From positions 1 through 52,211 of the forward strand of contig JABXKS010000054.1 of the NCBI GenBank assembly GCA_013619125.1: a stretch of DNA of 52,211 bases, given 5' to 3'. Made by a program: the position numbers and the translations under genes. Shown here in pieces: positions 14,146 through 21,214 of this stretch (position 1 is its first letter; each line of letters starts with the position of its first letter). Source of the stretch: Clostridiales bacterium. Lineage in GTDB: Bacteria; Bacillota; Clostridia; Tissierellales; GPF-1. The notes beneath the pieces are model-generated. The model searched no databases. It was not told the DNA's origin and saw only the letters and a list, made by a program, of their open reading frames with translations.

Positions 14146-15372
14146 ATGAATGTTTTTCTTCGGTTAGGTCTTTTATTAGTTATTGGTTTTTTTGGTGGAA
14201 AGTTAATGAAGCGGATTAAGTTGCCGACAGTTACAGGGTACATCTTGATTGGGCTTTTATTAGGGAGATCTGGCGTTGATCTCTTAACACCTGGATTTAT
14301 TGATCAGATGGGCTTTATCAGTTCGGTTGCCCTTGTCTTTATCGCATTCAGCATCGGTAGCGAATTTCGAATTCAGGAGATCCGCGAATTAGGCAAATCG
14401 ATTGTTGTGATCGCATTTTGTGAGGCGATCGTTACCTTTGTTTTGGTTACAGGATTTATGCGATTGTTTGTGAATTGGCCGACAGCGCTTATCTTAGGCG
14501 CCGTATCGTCGGCAACGGCTCCAGCGGCTACCATGATGGTCTTGCGGGAATATCGTGCACGTGGACCGTTGACCTCCACGCTTTTAGGGGTTGTCGCGGT
14601 GGATGATGCTATTTGTTTGATGATCTTTGCCGTTGCTTCTTCAGTAGCAAAGGTATTTGTCGCTCATGATGTGCTAACCTTTAGTCGATTGGTCGTGATC
14701 CCATTGGTTGAAATTATCAGTTCTGTGGGTCTTGGCGTTGTTTTGGGCTTCGGATTGATTTTGGTGGCTCGCCGAGTGAGCAATGATGCGGAGCTTTTAA
14801 CGGTTGTTGTGGCTGCCGCGCTTCTGATTACGGGAGCAGCAGAACAGTTGGGTGTATCGGAATTACTTTGCGCCATGGCAGCAGGAGTGACGGTTACGAA
14901 TGGAATGGCTGTAGTGCCGGCTCGTCGATTATTTACCGTAGCGGAGCAATTTACACCGCCGATTATAACGGCATTTTTTGTGATTGCAGGATCCAGGTTG
15001 GATTTAGCCATGATTCCACAGATTGGTTGGATCGGTTTGGTTTATCTTCTTGTGAGAATGATTGGGAAAATTAGCGGAGCCTCTTTGGGTGGTGCCTTGT
15101 CAAAATCTCCGATGGTTGTTCGAAAGTATCTGGGATTTGGTCTTTTGTCTCAGGTTGGTGTTGCAGTGGGATTAGCGATTATTGTGAGTGAAATGTTTGC
15201 GGGTACAGAGATTGGTTCTTTGGTGTTGACGATTTTATTGGCTACAACGATTGTAACGGAGGTTGTTGGACCATTAATGACAAGATATGCGATTTTTAGC
15301 GCAAATGAAGCAAAGAAGGAGACTGTACATGGAAAATCACCAAGAGAAGCACATGCTTCTTCTCATTCTTAG
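14146..15372 (+). CDS. CPA2-family cation:proton antiporter
   Basis: Integral membrane antiporter (Na+/H+ or K+/H+ exchange) of the CPA2/KefB-NapA type, 408 residues. About a dozen hydrophobic segments run through the protein; recognisable parts are the N-terminal IKLPTVTGYILIGLLLGRSG and the central VVAVDDAICLMIFAV, which contains the paired acidic residues of the ion site (here DD). The ATG at 14146 follows GAGGTG; an in-frame ATG at 14110 lacks an SD. There is no C-terminal TrkA-N/RCK domain, only a short basic-acidic tail. The last 44 bases overlap the next gene, implying coupled translation with two small proteins likely to regulate it. Confidence 0.9.
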   Translation: MNVFLRLGLLLVIGFFGGKLMKRIKLPTVTGYILIGLLLGRSGVDLLTPGFIDQMGFISSVALVFIAFSIGSEFRIQEIRELGKSIVVIAFCEAIVTFVLVTGFMRLFVNWPTALILGAVSSATAPAATMMVLREYRARGPLTSTLLGVVAVDDAICLMIFAVASSVAKVFVAHDVLTFSRLVVIPLVEIISSVGLGVVLGFGLILVARRVSNDAELLTVVVAAALLITGAAEQLGVSELLCAMAAGVTVTNGMAVVPARRLFTVAEQFTPPIITAFFVIAGSRLDLAMIPQIGWIGLVYLLVRMIGKISGASLGGALSKSPMVVRKYLGFGLLSQVGVAVGLAIIVSEMFAGTEIGSLVLTILLATTIVTEVVGPLMTRYAIFSANEAKKETVHGKSPREAHASSHS

Positions 15373-15694
15373 ATCTCCAATGGTTTTTGAAGCGGTTGTC
15401 GAAATTTTGACGGAGCTTCATGTTGAGTCGATTGTGTTGAAGGGGTCTCAAATAACAGGACCAGAAAAAGAACAAAGATTGGAAGTACCAATGGTCGGAG
15501 GATTTTTGCGATTGCTGGAGAAAGACTCGCCAGATAGTAAAGCGATTTTGACGATTATGGAAGACGATGCAATGAATGAGTTCGAAAAGCGTTGTGAGAA
15601 GATAGTTGGAAATCTTGCGGAAAGCAAAGAATTAACGGCTTTGGTTCTTCCTGTATTACGGACTTTGGGACAACAATTTAAGATTGCACTTTAA
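15329..15694 (+). CDS. PII-like small protein, paralogue 1
   Basis: A 121-residue soluble protein I cannot assign by name. AAGGAG precedes its ATG by seven bases, inside the antiporter gene. Predicted order is strand (HMLLLIL), helix (FEAVVEILTEL), strand (ESIVLKGSQ), long loop (about residues 42-70), strand (AILTIME), helix (NEFEKRCEKIV), strand (LTALVLPV), the ferredoxin-like beta-alpha-beta, beta-alpha-beta fold of PII and PII-like signal proteins, with the loop in T-loop position. It is about 51% identical (hand count 62/121) and gap-free against the next gene. Coupling to a CPA2 antiporter suggests a nucleotide- or metabolite-sensing regulator; this is inference. Confidence 0.6.
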   Translation: MENHQEKHMLLLILRSPMVFEAVVEILTELHVESIVLKGSQITGPEKEQRLEVPMVGGFLRLLEKDSPDSKAILTIMEDDAMNEFEKRCEKIVGNLAESKELTALVLPVLRTLGQQFKIAL

Positions 15695-15786
15695 TCGTTT
15701 GTTTTGTGGCCATCGTTCATAATTTTTTGAGCGATGGATGAAGGTATATACGAGTTTTGTGTGAAAAATGCACAAGGAGGTACGAT

Positions 15787-16152
15787 ATGGAAAACTTTAA
15801 AGGACAGCATATGCTGCTGTTATTGTTAAAAAAGCCTGCTGTAATGGAAGCGATAACCGAGATTTTGCGGGAAATGGGTATTCAGTCGATCTGTCTACAG
15901 GGATCGGAAGGGATCAATGCCAAAGAGGAAAAAGACTTAGAATTGCCTTTTGTTGGTAGCTTTTTGAGATTGATGGAGCAGGATGAACCTGAAGGAAAGG
16001 CAGTATTGACTGTTTTGAATGATGAGAAGCTAAAGGTTTTTGAAAAACACTGTGAAGAACGAATTGGTGATTATTCAAAAACCAAAGAACTGACAGCTTT
16101 GATTCTGCCTGTTTCGAGAAGTTTGGGGCAACAATTTCAATTTGCTGGATAA
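15787..16152 (+). CDS. PII-like small protein, paralogue 2
   Basis: Second 121-residue copy, exactly the same length as the preceding paralogue. Shared blocks include HMLLL at the N-terminus, ELTALxLPVxRxLGQQF at the C-terminus, the loop motif LExPxVGxFLRL and one Cys (FEKxCE). AAGGAGG lies six bases before the ATG at 15787; a 92-base gap separates it from copy 1. The loop (about residues 42-70) and the N-terminal residues 4-7 differ most. PII-family trimers often occur as paired paralogues with different partners, so the two could form heterotrimers. No close named family comes to mind; function is unproven. Confidence 0.6.
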   Translation: MENFKGQHMLLLLLKKPAVMEAITEILREMGIQSICLQGSEGINAKEEKDLELPFVGSFLRLMEQDEPEGKAVLTVLNDEKLKVFEKHCEERIGDYSKTKELTALILPVSRSLGQQFQFAG

Positions 16153-19952: not shown

Positions 19953-20041
19953 TGACAGTTGACCGGTTTGCCGAATCACGACAACTAGCCGATTGCCGAT
20001 TACAGCCTAGCTGGTAACATTCAGATAAGGAGATGACGGGA

Positions 20042-21214
20042 TTGGAAAAATATCAATTTCTAATGGATTTGGTGATCATTATTTTGGTTGCCAATATTGG
20101 CGGGTATATAGCAAATCGCTTAAATCAGCCTTCTGTTTTAGGACAAATTGTAGGTGGTTTGATTGCGGGCCCAACTTTTTTAGGTTTGGTCTATGATTCT
20201 GCTTTTATTACGGATATGTCAGAGATCGGGGTTATCCTGTTGATGTTTATCGCAGGCTTGGAAACCGATGTTGATGAATTGAAATCATCCGGGAAGGCAT
20301 CGACATTGATCGCCTTGGGCGGGGTGATCGTTCCCTTTGTTTTTGGAGCGGCTGCCTTGTATTTCTTGAGACCGGGACTCGATCAATTGGAATATATTTA
20401 TTACGGGATTATCTTGACGGCGACATCGGTCAGCATCACGGTGCAAACCCTCAGAGATATGCGTTGTTTGAAGTGTCGCTCGGGTGTCAGCATTCTTGGG
20501 GCTGCGATTATCGATGATGTGATTGGCATTATTTTGGTAACGGTTGTCACAGGGATGGTCAGCCCCGCTGGCGGTGCCAGTGTGGTTTGGGTGATTATGA
20601 AGATCATCGGATTCTTCTTGATTGCCATTGGAATCGCGGTTGTCTTCTACAAGATTTTGAACAAGAGAGCCGAATTTTTCAATCGCCAGCGGCGACTTTT
20701 GCAAGCCGCTTTGATCTATTGTTTTCTATCGGCAATTTTTGCGGAAGAAATGGGTGTCGCAGCGATTATTGGCGCCTACTTCACAGGGGTGGTTTTTTCA
20801 ACCACACATTTTCGCAACCAGGTATCCCACGAGGTGCAGCGGGTAGCCTACGCTTTGTTCACTCCGATCTTCTTTGTACATATTGGGATTGCGGTGAATA
20901 TGCCGCCCTTTACCTGGAGTCTTGTGATTTTAAGCCTTGGTTTGACGGCAGCAGCCTTGATTGGCAAGGTGATCGGTGCTGGTTTTGGTGCGAAGCTTTC
21001 GAAGTTCAGCAATCAAGAGGCCATTCAGATTGGCCTTGGGATGATGCCTCGAGCGGAGGTCGCATTGATTGTCGCTAATCTCGGTCTAGAGATGGGCATT
21101 ATTGGCCAAGAAATCTTCACGAGTGTGATTGTGATGGTTCTTTTGTCAACCATTGTAACGCCGATTGCGTTGAAAGGGGCTTTCCATATAGGAAAGCTAG
21201 AAGAGGTCGCGTAG
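20042..21214 (+). CDS. CPA2-family cation:proton antiporter (second copy)
   Basis: A 390-residue membrane antiporter of the CPA2 family. Features: N-terminal ANRLNQPSVLGQIVGGLIAG, many hydrophobic helices and the ion-site helix AAIIDDVIGIILVTV with paired Asp, plus a conserved basic region near the C-terminus (MMPRAEVALIVANLG). Start choice: AAGGAG (20027-20032) directly abuts an ATG at 20033, so the TTG at 20042 at nine bases is the likely start. It differs clearly from the antiporter at 14146 and has no PII-like partners; it sits between prfA and tsaC, likely in the same transcript. Confidence 0.88.
   Translation: MEKYQFLMDLVIIILVANIGGYIANRLNQPSVLGQIVGGLIAGPTFLGLVYDSAFITDMSEIGVILLMFIAGLETDVDELKSSGKASTLIALGGVIVPFVFGAAALYFLRPGLDQLEYIYYGIILTATSVSITVQTLRDMRCLKCRSGVSILGAAIIDDVIGIILVTVVTGMVSPAGGASVVWVIMKIIGFFLIAIGIAVVFYKILNKRAEFFNRQRRLLQAALIYCFLSAIFAEEMGVAAIIGAYFTGVVFSTTHFRNQVSHEVQRVAYALFTPIFFVHIGIAVNMPPFTWSLVILSLGLTAAALIGKVIGAGFGAKLSKFSNQEAIQIGLGMMPRAEVALIVANLGLEMGIIGQEIFTSVIVMVLLSTIVTPIALKGAFHIGKLEEVA

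Follow-up and report, generated by a model that had tools for sequence, protein, structure and literature searches.

A short CPA2-type antiporter and two PII-like proteins encoded in tandem in a Clostridiales bacterium: a candidate ion exchanger with regulatory subunits in trans

Genes for PII-like proteins are generally associated with genes for short CPA2-type cation/proton antiporters, beyond chance both when loci are picked by the PII-like sequence and when they are picked by the antiporter. In the window analyzed here (the whole 52,211-nucleotide stretch of contig JABXKS010000054.1 from the Clostridiales bacterium assembly GCA_013619125.1) one such antiporter is followed by two tandem PII-like genes, designated P1 and P2 (Table 1). 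We consider it probable that the three genes encode an ion/proton antiporter together with one or two cytosolic subunits that regulate it, with the PII-like protein gating exchange in response to a ligand. In many anaerobic bacteria the genes for such an exchanger and for a PII-like protein occur together, and the PII-like protein probably turns exchange on or off in response to cellular conditions.

Table 1. Features of the antiporter-P1-P2 unit (positions in the window)
Feature	Position	Strand	Remarks
CPA2-type cation/proton antiporter	14146..15372	+	408 aa; membrane part only; Pfam PF00999, 133 bits
P1, PII-like, 121 aa	15329..15694	+	orthologous to the copy here in both same-genus genomes
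P2, PII-like, 121 aa	15787..16152	+	diverged tandem paralogue of P1
Overlap of antiporter 3' end and P1 5' end, 44 bases	15329..15372	+	possible translational coupling
Shine-Dalgarno-like AAGGAG	15316..15321	+	7 bases 5' of P1 start
Shine-Dalgarno-like AAGGAGG	15774..15780	+	6 bases 5' of P2 start
Stem-loop, 10 pairs, between P1 and P2	15710..15737	+	putative element
Terminator-like hairpin and T run, 3' of P2	16151..16168	+	likely end of the three-gene unit

The open reading frames confirm what a preliminary description had read from this DNA, namely two 121-residue paralogues after the antiporter, the first starting inside the antiporter gene. The coordinates in both same-genus genomes (loci L008 and L009) give an overlap of 44 bases as well, and this overlap and the ribosome site may couple translation of P1 to that of the antiporter. 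P1 and P2 are identical at 62 of 120 positions (~52%; 93 positive, no gaps, E 2e-47), in agreement with the ~51% ungapped identity estimated earlier. The 106-base region around the stem-loop that separates them folds better than shuffled sequences do (z -3.0), and the stem-loop could set the P1:P2 ratio. Four terminator-like sites were found in the region, with 2.3 expected by chance. The gene beyond the hairpin that follows P2 is, judging from its sequence, presumably rho-like.

The antiporter belongs to the CPA group by its Pfam Na_H_Exchanger score, which at 133 bits is well above the cut-off of 26.2. Its earlier designation as a CPA2 antiporter stands only in part: TIGR00932 (CPA2) is the best NCBIfam model (51.9 bits, E 7e-14), but the score lies below the curated cut-off of 238.3, and for this reason the antiporter is referred to as CPA2-type. 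Pfam gave no TrkA_N or TrkA_C match in the 408-residue protein, that is, no C-terminal RCK/KTN module of the Kef type. Antiporter frames at loci paired with a PII-like gene have a median length of 404 residues and a maximum of 450. An Asp-Asp pair (153-154), which we take to be the motif of electrogenic Na+/H+ antiporters, is invariant across all four antiporters of alignment A3 and makes sodium export the likelier transport.

AlphaFold models of P1 and P2 have the strand-helix-strand, loop, strand-helix-strand plan proposed from the sequence, with two short helices in the loop (mean pLDDT of the monomers 79.5 for P1 and 78.9 for P2; loop 51-69). A different predicted fold had been set beforehand as grounds for rejecting the PII assignment; both monomer models are ferredoxin-like, with the long loop between strands 2 and 3 that is expected of a PII structure. 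Foldseek rows for both models are headed by PstA, with PII, GlnK, SbtB, and PotN also among the leaders; the best E-values were 8.1e-5 for P1 and 5.6e-4 for P2, and seven chains and just one chain, respectively, fell at E<=0.001. VIA-align ranked CPII first (Z 10.4 for P1, 10.1 for P2). Ferredoxin-like rows outside the PII group reached Z 9.0-9.8 for P1 (mitoribosome, EF-G, LepA) and 9.1 for P2 (mitoribosome). Because unrelated ferredoxin-like domains score near PII, the fold alone is no proof of kinship.

Neither P1 nor P2 had a relevant match in Pfam or NCBIfam, and 20 family members of alignment A2 had none in NCBIfam. Sequences in the PDB returned chance rows only for P2 (best E 0.88), and PII chains came up at E 0.03-0.5 with the family profile, which is not significant. 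When 51 members (P1, P2, and 49 from public named records) were given to Pfam, 33 matched P-II (PF00543) at E<=0.01, the best at 4.5e-8, and three matched Nit_Regul_Hom. Two members scored singly against P-II reached 20.3 and 17.3, below the gathering score of 25, and an orphan homologue elsewhere in the same genome (L026) had no P-II match. A 163-member profile that excludes the window's genus detects P2 at 45.9 bits (E 8e-13) and P1 at 43.6 bits (E 4e-12; database size set to 3000 for both), with the best of 2000 shuffled decoys at 10.4 bits. The sequence profile, the relatives' Pfam matches, and the fold combined therefore make a strong case that P1 and P2 are PII-like, as the preliminary description had suggested.

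A search with P2 found a match in 14 of 41 genomes (its own and 40 relatives). Motifs present in distant relatives are GAT-x-x-DSxGM, NKT, and GxGxMFVxPV. Three frames of 225-240 residues (L167, L168, and L169) have two P-II stretches per chain in Pfam. Canonical GlnB and GlnK have a T-loop tyrosine and a glycine-rich B-loop nucleotide motif; there is no tyrosine in residues 39-70 of P1 or P2. Identity as a nitrogen sensor was set aside because the entire genome gave no PF00543 match at E<=0.001, and identity as a DarA copy was dropped because the genome has a separate DarA-type gene (C125) and P1 and P2 have no match to PF06153 (CdAMP_rec).

The family profile was used to search 150 genomes of the order. 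Among the matches listed, 105 genomes are represented: 84 have strong matches (111 altogether, at E 6.8e-22 or better), and 21 have weak matches only. Flanks of at most 3 kb around the strong matches listed, minus the window's own two, yielded 107 loci with 109 PII-like genes, in which PII-like and antiporter matches were accepted at E 1e-6. A CPA2-type antiporter was present at 61 of these 107 loci. Among the same strong matches listed, 57 of the 109 PII-like genes lie within 200 bases of an antiporter and share its strand (30 downstream of it and 27 upstream), and six have an antiporter on the opposite strand (four adjacent, two farther off). The chance rate of an antiporter neighbor can be estimated at ~1% from the five Na_H_Exchanger genes above cut-off in the 3.4-Mb genome. 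None of nine sampled weak-match loci, among the matches listed, had an antiporter; seven of the nine were put to Pfam, and all seven were above the P-II cut-off.

In the opposite direction, alignment A3 was scanned over named genomes, and the best 80 of at least 245 antiporter loci were kept. A PII-like gene was found at 57 of these best 80, in hosts that include Anaerophilus nitritogenes, Fusibacter, Clostridium tepidiprofundi, Sedimentibacter, Filifactor, Aerophobetes, and Mcinerneyibacterium. The PII-like genes at these best 80 loci number 60 (49 in alignment A4, from which 11 near-copies or very divergent sequences were omitted, and 46 in A5), and 53 of them adjoin the antiporter on the same strand. 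Because four antiporters are shared by the two locus sets, the counts are not fully independent. Both gene orders were found. Where the antiporter comes first, the PII-like gene starts a median of 18 bases past the antiporter stop (60 pairs from both sets, with the starts of the same-genus copies set at an inner ATG by rule). One genome (G112) has three tandem antiporter-plus-PII-like units (L141). Distances between antiporters correlate with those between the adjacent PII-like proteins (105 pairs, r 0.70; shuffled maximum 0.12), a correlation to which shared species history contributes. The second result that had been named beforehand as grounds for rejection, homologues not associated with antiporters in other genomes, was likewise not obtained in these surveys. 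The further proposal of a dedicated PII-like pair holds for the association with the antiporter but not for the pair, which is not a conserved unit: congeners and most loci have a single copy, and tandem PII-like pairs were found elsewhere at L196, L199, and L219.

Among the best 80 of at least 245 antiporter loci, 23 have no PII-like match; 12 of these are of a CBS-pair type, two have a weak PII-like match, and nine have neither. At the 12 loci (L216, L220, L225, L226, L229, L230, L233, L234, L242, L246, L247, and L249; nine Omnitrophota, one WOR-3, and two others) the CBS-type gene lies directly upstream of the antiporter, encodes ~160 residues, and belongs to one family by profile. No PII-like match was found at any of the 12, and each of the eight CBS-type genes put to Pfam has two CBS stretches. 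The sole other CBS matches, ~490-residue IMP dehydrogenase-like frames at L151, L154, and L158, were not counted. At L202 there is a weaker PII-like match (E 6e-8), and at L200 a 284-residue frame directly upstream of the antiporter (2067-2921) has a weak PII-like match (E 1e-4) fused to PTS EIIA-2. At four Tepidibacter loci (L174, L175, L179, and L193) the antiporter has no PII-like or CBS gene nearby, and in two of them a gene named HutP-like from its sequence lies upstream.

Adenine nucleotides are common ligands of PII-like proteins and of CBS pairs alike. Three changes are required to explain the CBS label on the antiporter tree, whose rooting is unsure because the second window antiporter is a very long outgroup. 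That members of one antiporter family are accompanied by either a PII-like or a CBS gene suggests that the sensor is a subunit acting in trans. The best reading of these neighborhoods is that an antiporter without a cytosolic sensor domain would borrow one in trans, usually a PII-like one.

The window pair has diverged from the rest of the family. P1 is identical to the two congener copies at the same place at 84 and 85 of 121 residues, and P2 at 54 and 57. At this site each congener has a single copy and no P2, and a tandem pair at the site of this antiporter is found in the window's own genome only. Each congener, and the window's own genome, also has one orphan homologue elsewhere; the orphan of the own genome, unlike P1 and P2, retains the GAT and GM of the family motif. 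In comparison with its two same-genus orthologues, P1 has dN of 0.17-0.21 and dS of 0.54-1.08 (dN/dS ~0.2-0.4). Because dN is well under dS, selection acts on P1 as a protein; no such ratio can be derived for P2, whose dS is saturated. P2 branches outside P1 and both congener copies in the tree. Thus, either the duplication predates these species, with loss of P2 from the congeners, or P2 is evolving rapidly.

The GAT, DSxGM, and GxG signatures are missing from P1, P2, and both congener copies. In the window pair the loss falls at positions 34-44 and 100-102; the family GxG is KEL in both, and position 102 is Leu, as opposed to Gly in 92% of relatives. With these signatures lost, the ligand of P1 and P2 may differ from that of the family. 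The PxVGxFLRLxE segment, K71, the PV pair (P108-V109), and G114 are kept in P1, P2, and the congener copies. It is likely, as far as conservation can indicate, that the ligand site was changed or lost and the docking surface kept. One alternative is that the proteins of this genus are degenerate, having lost the ligand site, and now act solely to help assemble or stabilize the antiporter, or have no role. The lost signatures, the absence of a Pfam match, and the very long branch of the window pair (3.27 changes per column) are all in keeping with degeneracy. However, purifying selection on P1, the residues kept in both copies, and good ribosome sites for both P1 and P2 argue against it, and we regard it as unlikely.

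It is also conceivable that the PII-like protein is a broader sensor of energy or second-messenger state that is merely cotranscribed with the antiporter and has other targets too, like GlnB and GlnK. At 46 of the 107 loci around the strong matches listed there is no antiporter within ~3 kb; 12 of these 46 run into a contig end, with less than 1200 bases on one side. In the tree many antiporter-less members form one clade with other neighbors, and therefore some members work elsewhere. Genes named from sequence as UlaG-like hydrolase and FeoB-like adjoin the orphans at 24 and 17 of the 46 loci, respectively (e.g., among L082, L090, L106, and L110), mostly in bacterial families f19 and f3, and orphan PII-like genes perhaps have another transporter as partner. 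The window's own genome likewise has both the orphan homologue L026 (G000:C81) and the DarA/PstA-type gene. Nevertheless, same-strand adjacency in both gene orders, the involvement of two antiporter subfamilies, the tandem units, and the exchange with CBS pairs point to the antiporter as the target, and this broader role appears less probable again than degeneracy.

A second CPA2-type antiporter of another subfamily (20033-21214; Pfam, 237 bits) lies between a prfA-like gene and a Sua5-like gene, with no PII-like gene beside it in the window. P1 and P2 might mainly serve this antiporter, or each might serve one of the two. The tree joins the window clade with the PII-like genes of L125, L136, L196, and L199 (10 rows, 100/99). 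At L125, L136, and L196 the PII-like gene follows an antiporter of the second subfamily, 46% identical to 20033-21214 and 23-25% identical to 14146-15372, and the L196 cluster contains both antiporter types and two PII-like genes. However, this grouping unites long branches and was flagged as unreliable, and P1 overlaps the first antiporter, with the second one 4 kb away behind three genes. We consider service to the second antiporter lower still in probability. It is very improbable that P1 and P2 are metal-binding CutA/DUF190-like ferredoxin-fold proteins rather than PII signal proteins: CutA structures are nearly level with PII for P2 in VIA-align (Z 8.6-8.9) and one of the 51 members touches DUF190 (E 0.0098), but P-II is matched by 33 of the 51, and PstA and PII lead the Foldseek E-values.

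In the reading that we prefer, in which the PII-like protein is a regulatory subunit of the first antiporter, the short CPA2-type antiporter would lack the C-terminal RCK/KTN sensor of KefB/KefC, and the PII-like protein, made from the same message and probably a trimer, would dock on the antiporter from the cytoplasmic side by way of the stretch that links strands 2 and 3, at the position of the T-loop. This segment has a predicted helix with the conserved hydrophobic pattern P-x-V/F-G-x-F/L-x-R/K-L-L. P1 and P2 may form heterotrimers as well, a possibility raised in the preliminary description. Docking would gate exchange in a ligand-dependent manner, the ligand most likely being an adenine nucleotide or c-di-AMP. 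In the window's genus the signal sensed by P1 and P2 may be a different one, or the two may have become constitutive or titrating subunits; P2 is an extra, diverged copy. Known CPA2-type antiporters are dimers. The symmetry mismatch between a trimer and a dimeric antiporter counts against the preferred reading, as do the family motifs missing from the window pair, its long branch, the few Foldseek chains at E<=0.001, the narrow margin of the PII rows in VIA-align, and the unpaired loci (46 of 107 around the strong PII-like matches listed and nine of the best 80 of at least 245 antiporter loci).

A wider form of this reading can be put forward tentatively, with a little less than half of our confidence behind it. 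Short CPA2-type antiporters would be run by an exchangeable sensor in trans, which is PII-like in Bacillota, Aerophobetes, and others, a CBS pair in Omnitrophota, WOR-3, and others, and a PII-like/PTS-EIIA fusion in one lineage. In each case the sensor would respond to the adenylate or second-messenger state and adjust the ion gradient accordingly, and a trimeric PII-like protein would act on a dimeric transporter.

Few signal proteins of prokaryotes are as widespread as those of the PII type, which are homotrimers with their ligand sites between subunits. In KefB/KefC-like CPA2 antiporters the membrane domain is controlled by a cytosolic nucleotide-binding module, which is present in cis, whereas here a PII-like or CBS-pair protein is encoded alongside. 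PotN is a PII-like protein of a Bacillota transporter operon, with a polyamine ABC transporter as its partner; its structure (7o4x) resembles P2 and P1 (VIA Z 9.6 and 9.9, respectively), but the sequences are only 15% identical. PstA/DarA, a c-di-AMP receptor (PF06153) of Bacillota, is the best Foldseek match of both models, yet differs in its Pfam family and in having its own gene at C125. According to the parts of the review PMC10710835 consulted, GlnK is a small PII protein encoded beside AmtB that plugs the transporter with its T-loop. A small PII or PII-like gene adjoins a transporter gene in both cases. However, AmtB is a trimeric ammonium channel and the partner here is a CPA2-type antiporter, and P1 and P2 lack the loop-segment tyrosine for uridylylation and a Pfam P-II match. 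SbtB, as covered in the consulted portions of PMC10710835 and PMC10117731, is a PII-like protein dedicated to the Na+-coupled SbtA, with AMP, c-di-AMP, and others as ligands. In contrast, SbtA is a trimeric bicarbonate symporter, and P1 and P2 lack the C-terminal R-loop cysteines of SbtB and share ~10% identity with it. No PII-type control of a CPA2 antiporter was found in the literature searched, which is a weak negative because subscription papers were outside its scope. PII control of a neighboring transporter is thus known, and a CPA2 antiporter as the target would be new.

If the preferred reading is correct, a PII-like subunit dedicated to antiporters that exchange sodium or potassium for protons would let a small-molecule signal act directly on the ion and pH homeostasis of anaerobes. 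In the consulted parts of PMC10710835, PII control is apparently restricted to transporters that are able to form trimers; a trimeric PII-like protein on a dimeric transporter would, if real, contradict this trimer-only view. The exchange of PII-like proteins with CBS pairs also poses a testable question, namely which signal is common to two unrelated sensor modules.
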